Of a DNA stretch of 64,000 nucleotides, positions 10,401 through 14,859 are shown in pieces; positions within the stretch are counted from its first letter, which is position 1; each line of letters opens with the position of its first letter. The stretch is from NCBI RefSeq assembly GCF_020085105.1, contig NC_058055.1, positions 15,005,822 to 15,069,821 on the forward strand, read 5' to 3'. The position numbers were made by a program, and so were the translations under genes. The DNA comes from Siniperca chuatsi. Taxonomy: Eukaryota; Chordata; Actinopteri; Centrarchiformes; Sinipercidae. The notes beneath the pieces were generated by a model. It was not told the origin of the DNA. It ran no database searches and saw only the letters and a list, made by a program, of their open reading frames with translations.

Positions 10401-13400
10401 TATTAATAATGTTTAGAAAGATTTATAGTGTCCATGTTTGCACATATGTAAACTAGGTAACACAATATAGCAAAATAGAAACTTAACGATGTGTCCAGAG
10501 GAATACATCTTGGAAATATCTGACCACATTTCCAAAGTGTTGGGAGTTCACAAAAGCACAGCAATTTATTTCATAGAGAGACCAAAAAATATGTAATTAC
10601 CTGGACTCTGTATACCTGTTTGTCAACAAAACTGAGCAACCTAGCTTGGTTAGAGCATTGATAAGCCTAGGACCACTGTGACAGAACCAAAGTCAGTCAA
10701 CACAGACTTTCATTACAGACTTAACAAAACTGGGCTCTATGGCAGAGTGGCCAGAAGTCCAAAAGCAGACTTTAGCCACAATGGAAAATTACTTCACAAC
10801 TGCTGCGAGACGCTCTTTGTCATACAAGAGCAAGTTTGAACAAATCTGCAAGGAATAATGGGAGAAATGCCCTGAATCAGTGCTGAAGTGATACTAACAT
10901 ATTCAAGAAAACGCTGAGAAGCTGTAACCACTGCCGAACACCTCATAACCAACTAATGACTGGACCTGCTGTTCAGGACCCTCTGATGAGAACTAGCAAA
11001 ATCAGTATCATCTTTTAAAACATCTTTTCAAAACTTTGTTTTGACAATGTCATTTGTCTTTTTACTTTTTTTGATTTTGTGCTTATCTCTTACTTTTCTC
11101 TTTTACTTTTTTCTGAACAATGTTTCAGCAGTTTCTTGCTTTGTAAAGTCCAAAAAGATAGTGGTGTGCTCAGGGTAGGTAAAAAGGTTTGAAATAAAAA
11201 AAGTTATGTGCTCGCACATATAGGAGCAGGAGCAATGTGGAAGTTATAATTTAAAGGTTTTTTTTATATCTTTTTTATATCTTTGTAGATTTTGTAACTT
11301 TCTTTTGAGAAGTGCTATAAAAATACAGTGTTGAACATTGTGGTGAGGCACTGCATACATTACTGCTAAAGTCTTTGCAGTCCAAAGATTTTGTGATGGC
11401 AGTGAACCAGTGTGGGTGGCATTCGTGTGTGATGACCTCACTGTCTTGTGTTACCTTTGACTTTCTTTGCAGGGTGACCAGGGGTCAGATCAAAGTTTAG
11501 GAAACCAGCAAACAGCAGTCATCAACCTGGGAGTCGGCGGCTTTATGTCTCCACAGGCCGCAGGTATAACCCACATACATACAGACAGACATACAAATAC
11601 ACATTAAACCCACACAGATTTCTCCAAAACATTTCTCTTTGTTCAGTCCCATAACCTGTTTCAAAACAAATTGACACCATGCCACTAACTAGTACTAATA
11701 AGACAAGATTTACTAATGTATTCATTATTGTAATTACTGCACATTAGAACTCATAGTCTGTAACTAAACATGATCATTTTACTGTAGTTAGCCATTGTTC
11801 CTCTCAATGGAGCATGTAACAACTGTCTTCCACTTCTTCTCTGCTACATTCTCTTTTTTTATTATGCCTCTGCGTCGTGGCTGGAGGCATTATGTTTTCG
11901 GGTTGTCCGTCCGTCCCATTCTCGTGTAGCAATAGGAATTTCTTCAAATTGGCACAAACGTCCACTTGGACACAAGGAAGAGCAAGACAAGAATTTGGTG
12001 GTCAAAGGTCAAGGTCACTGTGACCTCACAAAACCCATTTTTGGCCATAACAAGAATTGATGACCATATTTCACAGTTGGTGACACTTTTGACTCATAGG
12101 TCAAGGTCACTGTGACCTCAAAATGACCTTAACAAACATGTTTTTGGCCATAACTCAAGAATCGATGCGGTAATTATGACAAAATTTCACACAGATGTTT
12201 AATGATGAAGTGATGACATTTTTTACCCAAAAGGTCAAAGGTCAACTTAACTGTGACATCATAATGTCCTGGAAAAACACTTTTTTGCCATTATTCAACA
12301 CCATAACTCAGGAACAGAAAGGGAGATTGTGACCATATTTCATAGTTGGGCAGACACTGAACAGGTGACACTTTTGACTCAGAGGTTGAAGGTCATTGTG
12401 ACCTCAAAATAGGTTTTTAGCCATAATTTAAGAATGAATTGGGCCATTCCAGATTTCACACACATGTTGACTGGGAACGACACAATGAGTAAACAATAAC
12501 TAGCACAGTACAGGCTTTCCTCCATCTCGTCCATTCTGCCTTTCACTTCTGCCTCATTCTGAATTTCGAGTGTCATCGGAATCACATGACTGCAAACAAC
12601 GTATTGGAGCGCACCTAGCTAATCACGATCCTGTGAGTGAGTTTCACTTACAGCTCATAGAGAGGCTTCGCATCTAACAATGCCAGGAGAAAACAAAAGC
12701 ACCGCATTTTGTGTAGCTATACTCTAATCAGTTCAACAATGTATATTTACTGGAATCATACATATGTATCATCAATATAGTGATAACTTCCAGTTATCCA
12801 ACAAATACACTTTATACCTTTTTTATTCAGTTCCTTCCAAGTATTTATTACATATATTATGAGTCTGGACAGACATGGATGTAAACTGCAACTTGAATGG
12901 TTGGCAGAGGCAAACAATCGCGGGGCGGTAATTCTAGTTTTTCCTCTGTTGTTTTTTGCCCCCACCCTTATTTCTTTCCCTCCTGCGCTGTCTTCCTGTC
13001 CTCCTTCTGAACCTGCCCTGCTCACTCACGCCTTTCCACCCCATCTTTGCTATTTGCCCATAATCCACTTAAAAATGCTCATGCACACGGTCATTTACCT
13101 GTGCTGTTGGCCTCCCTGCAATGTTCCCTCTTTTTGTCTTCTCTCTTTAATTTCATCTCTTTGCTTGTGTGTGGTTATGCACCACTGAAACCACTCATCA
13201 ATGTCCCCCTTTTGCCTGTATGTGCATTTTCTCTCTTCATACTTTACTCCATTCCTTCTTCTGCTTCCCTCTCTCTTGCCGTCACATCCTTCCCTCTGGG
13301 GCTTCCTCTCTCCCTCCTACCCCCTTAGTGCTGTCCCAGTTGGGCTGTGGGCTGGACGGGTCTGGGCCCCCGCTGCCTTCTCCAAGGCTTCAGCAGCAGC

Positions 13401-14859: not shown

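Follow-up and report, generated by a model that had tools for sequence, protein, structure and literature searches.

Splicing determines which frame of a shared exon is read in CDKN2A (INK4a/ARF) and in XBP1. In those genes the choice is made by an alternative first exon and by cytoplasmic IRE1 splicing, respectively, rather than by a penultimate cassette exon, and the products have known separate functions. Two described classes come closer to the arrangement that we report here for the supt20h gene of Siniperca chuatsi. Dual-coding isoforms that arise from non-triplet alternative splicing have been reported in a study of worms, with 54 such events (PMC13247117), and frameshifting penultimate exons that give rise to splicing-accessible coding 3'UTRs have been reported with conservation among mammals (PMC7392665).

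The likeness to the first class is that a non-triplet cassette exon, here of 89 nt, picks the downstream frame, that both frames are open for at least 60 nt thereafter (107 nt in fish and, by back-translation, 101 nt in human), and that neither mRNA is expected to undergo decay. The supt20h case differs in being common to fish and human, whereas the conservation treated in the relevant passages of PMC13247117 is conservation in worms. The likeness to the second class is that a frameshifting penultimate exon alters the C-terminus while leaving both stops within the last exon, a position that should spare the mRNAs from decay. There, however, skipping extends translation into the annotated 3'UTR and raises the proline content, whereas in supt20h it is inclusion that gives the longer frame; its skip stop (14817-14819) precedes its include stop (14857-14859), and skipping does not extend the frame. 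SUPT20H and FAM48A do not occur in the main text of either paper, and SAGA does not occur in that of PMC13247117. Among the papers listed by searches of an open-access library we saw none that describes the SUPT20H overlap, and among the passages retrieved on SUPT20H, FAM48A or p38IP none describes the two tails. SUPT20H splicing events have been recorded, namely an exon skip (PMC9519915), an alternative donor (PMC7477087) and a PCR-validated differential splicing event (PMC13357752); the passages in question do not specify the exon. The class is already known, and supt20h is a further case of it, notable as one that fish and human have in common. (A degenerate 24-nt pattern for the overlap had no match among the viral contigs of the viral_contigs set.)

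The following features of the window, by which we mean the whole stretch of 64,000 nucleotides that was analysed, are referred to below.

1500..14859, + strand: supt20h coding region, 23 coding exons with AG/GT borders; matches human SUPT20H and contains Spt20_SEP
11473..11563, + strand: 91-nt exon preceding the switch, entered in phase 0 and left with one spare base; weak donor (0.23)
13129..13328, + strand: pyrimidine tract with 78% C+T that precedes the cassette exon; its PTB-type words are the densest of 22 acceptors
13329..13417, + strand: 89-nt cassette exon, the proposed frame switch, flanked by AG and GT; its donor is the second weakest of 22, and its human counterpart is LSQLG...QQQIQ in 8h7g_D
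14713..14819, + strand: two-frame stretch of 107 nt, read in frame A if the cassette exon is skipped and in frame B if it is included
14817..14819, + strand: frame A stop (skip form), from reading-frame analysis of the exon model
14820..14859, + strand: part coding in frame B only and 3'UTR in the skip form; ends with the stop 14857-14859

The start codon of the 23-exon model is the ATG at 1500-1502, and the products are 832 aa (include form) and 789 aa (skip form) in length. When compared to human SUPT20H chains, the 832-aa product scores 1078 bits against 7ktr_C and 981 bits against 8h7g_D, with the match beginning at residue 1. The first 474 aa contain the Spt20_SEP domain (PF12090 in Pfam, E 3.6e-26), and this domain together with the full-length likeness to human SUPT20H identifies the product as SUPT20H (Spt20). 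No second copy was seen when the same 474 aa were used to search the genome (718,788,923 bases in 65 contigs) and the best candidates were scored, as all 12 of the 12 matches listed fall inside supt20h.

An earlier note on this DNA had claimed that the last exon is read in two frames with the 89-nt exon as the switch, that 107 nt code twice and that the exon at 11473-11563 leaves one spare base, and our exon model bears out each of these statements. The last exon begins at 14713, directly after an AG, and including the cassette exon, whose three forward frames all lack a stop, restores phase 0. Our best explanation, to which as a whole we assign a probability of about 0.8, is that this non-triplet exon acts as a reading-frame switch. 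Skipping would join the spare base of the preceding exon to the last exon and so lead into frame A, the tail of which is rich in Ala, Ser and Gly and ends in YRQPTKK; inclusion would add 29 residues and then lead into frame B, the tail of which is rich in Gln and Ala and carries a basic SKRKR patch. (Both tails appear to be of low complexity.) Since both stops lie within the last exon, nonsense-mediated decay of either mRNA would not be expected, and both splice forms are likely to be made in S. chuatsi. What the sequences show is the splice borders, the openness of the two frames, the presence of each tail in human, and the capacity of a single human stretch in the same register to encode the two.

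The two types of human ending, which the earlier note had described, are both present in the PDB as deposited, already catalogued sequences. The fish include-type tail matches residues 671-775 of 8h7g_D (779 aa; E 1.1e-11), and the skip-type tail matches residues 750-811 of 7ktr_C ('Isoform 3', 811 aa; E 2.7e-9). The names of the catalogued isoforms are silent on any shared stretch of DNA, whereas joint back-translation reveals the sharing. In particular, we paired the two human tails at the point where the last exon begins and tried registers +1 and +2. Register +2, which is the fish register, yielded solutions in which the two proteins fix 100 of the 101 bases of the overlap; with the same pairing, register +1 gave no joint solution, and in 300 controls with a shuffled skip tail the best fit reached at most 7 of 33 codons. 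The human tails are thus almost certainly encoded by a single stretch that is read in either frame, just like the fish tails and as had been suggested. Because human has both endings and a single stretch can encode them in the fish register, the overlap is probably older than the divergence of fish and tetrapods, in keeping with the earlier claim, and the arrangement would already have existed in the last ancestor shared by ray-finned fish and tetrapods. Conserved residues extend into the cassette exon, where LSQLG at the start and QIQ at the end are kept in frame B, and the end of frame A, YRQPxKK followed by a stop, is common to both species. Both human tails open the last exon with one extra residue, an Ala in frame A and a Gln in frame B, as would be expected if the human acceptor lay three bases upstream of the fish one.

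We compared the fish overlap with the human overlap DNA as deduced from the proteins, a comparison of two species. Identical bases occupy 70 of 92 aligned positions (76%). At the protein level, frame A matches at 21 of 28 residues and frame B at 18 of 30. The indels agree across frames: the fish has 5 extra codons, that is 15 nt rather than the 12 nt given previously, and human has 2 extra codons (6 nt) that lie further on and are separate from the 3 extra bases with which its last exon opens. The argument that an insertion in multiples of three speaks for two frames was rejected, since either frame alone requires it. Differences number 4/31 at B1/A2 sites, 9/31 at B2/A3 sites and 9/30 at B3/A1 sites; a single constrained frame at saturation predicts changes mostly at its own third positions, a pattern that is absent here. 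B1/A2 sites are those at which a substitution usually affects both proteins; there the 4/31 compare with 18/61 elsewhere (P 0.06), a scarcity that is only suggestive of two-frame constraint.

To assess selection in each frame we used simulations. The base alignment, which had been tuned on the observed bases, was held fixed in the codon-retention and frame-blind simulations, and in a separate test every simulated protein was realigned, with agreement for the saturated nulls. When human DNA was redrawn by codon usage from the include-frame protein, as if B alone were selected, at none of four codon-retention levels (0 to 70%) did a draw with frame A open attain the observed identity of A (0 of 20000 each). 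In the converse null, with A alone selected, 0 of 20000 draws reached the observed identity of B with an open frame at zero codon retention; with 30, 50 and 70% of matching codons retained from the fish, P for frame B was 0.004, 0.035 and 0.17. Realigned scoring at zero retention likewise gave 0 of 20000 for the A score under the B-only null and 0 of 20000 for the B score under the A-only null. Frame-blind nulls with an equal number of changes, in six variants, gave P 0.001-0.016 for frame A, and the joint conservation of A and B had P 0.0044 or less. Codons were retained at 13 of the 21 conserved residues of frame A (6.7 expected, P 0.003) and at 12 of the 16 conserved residues of frame B (5.5 expected, P 0.0005).

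These results bear on several other explanations of the locus. It is unlikely, in our estimation, that A alone is the selected tail and that open frame B is a by-product, the overlap bases being held in addition by RNA-level signals such as splicing enhancers or 3'-end regulation. What speaks for such an account is that, given the 76% base identity, the identity of frame B is no higher than the frame-blind null predicts (P 0.22-0.53), whereas that of A is higher; what speaks against it is the failure of the saturated A-only null, the conservation of cassette residues in frame B and the existence of the include form as a deposited human sequence (8h7g_D). The claim that both frames are under selection is thus supported for one of them and is weaker for the other. 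Protein-level selection on frame A is well supported. That on frame B is less secure: its support depends on the kept bases not being due to RNA-level constraint, and although B beats the saturated one-frame null, two species cannot separate protein constraint from constraint at the level of RNA.

We consider it more improbable still that one splice form is rare noise in fish, with the exon nearly always included (or nearly always skipped) and the second tail without a role. Splice borders by themselves do not reveal usage, but both tails are kept between fish and human, and the conservation of frame A above the frame-blind expectation would require the skip form to be made in both lineages. 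Chance, in the form of a low-complexity, CAG/GCA-rich exon whose second frame is open by accident, we regard as very improbable. It is true that second frames are often open in supt20h: among coding exons of at least 105 nt, the last included, stop-free runs of at least 35 codons occur in 5/13 in one alternative frame and in 3/13 in the other, and a fraction of 0.48 of random synonymous human include-frame tails are open in frame A. In the last exon itself the third frame is also open, for 48 codons, and the run of frame A is 34 whole codons. Openness of a second frame was for this reason rejected as evidence of dual coding. It is the register shared by both human tails, not openness, that exceeds chance, and this register, the shared end of frame A and, on the same side, the agreeing indels leave the chance explanation largely refuted already.

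How the switch might be set is suggested by the sequence around the cassette exon. The 200 nt upstream contain 46 PTB-type words (next acceptor 25, among the 22 supt20h acceptors) and, with a stricter word set in the same comparison, 16 (next acceptor 5); these words were picked after the tract had been seen. Only 0.05% of 200-nt stretches on the same strand of the whole window are equally pyrimidine-rich. The donor of the cassette exon scores -0.4, second lowest of 22 by the donor weights applied here, after -2.4 at 4029 and ahead of the preceding exon, which is third. A dense UCUU/CUCUCU-type tract together with a weak splice site is the anatomy of PTBP-repressed exons, as judged with words chosen post hoc, and suggests PTBP-controlled skipping. 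We tentatively predict that a PTBP-type repressor acting on the tract, combined with the weak donor, would set skipping and that inclusion would rise where PTBP1 is low, for example in neurons. A search of the open literature turned up no paper that ties SUPT20H splicing to PTBP1. Four stretches around the switch were scanned for words of other splicing factors. None of them contains the Rbfox word GCATG, the last intron has a single QKI-type word (14484) and the other three have none, and NOVA- and MBNL-type words are present by raw count. (The intron before the cassette exon also contains a degenerate repeat at 12002-12427, with four copies of a 30-nt unit containing AAGGTCAAGGTCACTGTGACCTCA and other repeated words.)

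With respect to the proteins, the earlier note had described a change from a neutral to a basic tail. The include tail is indeed the more basic of the two, with a charge of about +7.0 in fish and +6.2 in human (to residue 775 of 779); the skip tail, at about +2.7 and +2.8, is basic too and not neutral. In human SAGA from HeLa cells, SUPT20H has been described as a clamp-like scaffold with a core N-terminal domain, a latch and a C-terminal domain that sits at TRRAP (PMC8660637). The relevant passages of the same paper state that isoform differences lie mostly in disordered regions and that several isoforms of subunits were detected by mass spectrometry, and do not specify the SUPT20H tail. Given such a location, the tails, which would lie outside the parts of SUPT20H that are ordered in SAGA, should tune contacts, localisation or stability rather than assembly. 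A bolder proposal, which we think somewhat unlikely as a whole, is that the last exon of this core scaffold subunit, read in two frames since before the fish-tetrapod split, is toggled by a PTBP-controlled non-triplet exon, which may cause tissues with little PTBP (neurons, perhaps muscle) to build SAGA with the more basic SUPT20H tail; if this were true, a tissue-specific SAGA would be made from the same bases read in another frame. Coding variants in the last exon need to be scored in two frames, and SUPT20H constructs differ in their ending depending on the tail chosen. Because nearly every base is tied, with almost the whole human overlap following from the two proteins, a dual-coding exon common to fish and human is well suited to the question of how two proteins are maintained by selection in a single sequence.

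Several further observations concern the same gene and its surroundings. The human counterpart of the cassette exon carries a Gln run (8h7g_D), and in bovine FAM48A a Gln tract is polymorphic in length, with three alleles, in an exon that the passage does not specify (PMC3014979). A second frame is also open throughout the 313-nt supt20h exon at 8483-8795, for 104 codons. The human 779-aa form is without the residues that match fish residues 528-607, which lie in this exon, and their absence suggests an alternative human acceptor inside its counterpart; by eye, the fish exon has no AG at the corresponding point. Further along the window, ORFs on the + strand at 33635-36133 encode MH1 and MH2 domains, which together indicate a SMAD gene; in human, SMAD9 lies near SUPT20H. 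An ORF on the - strand at 39008-39670 encodes an RFXA_RFXANK_bdg domain, as in RFXAP, which is likewise a neighbour of SUPT20H in human.
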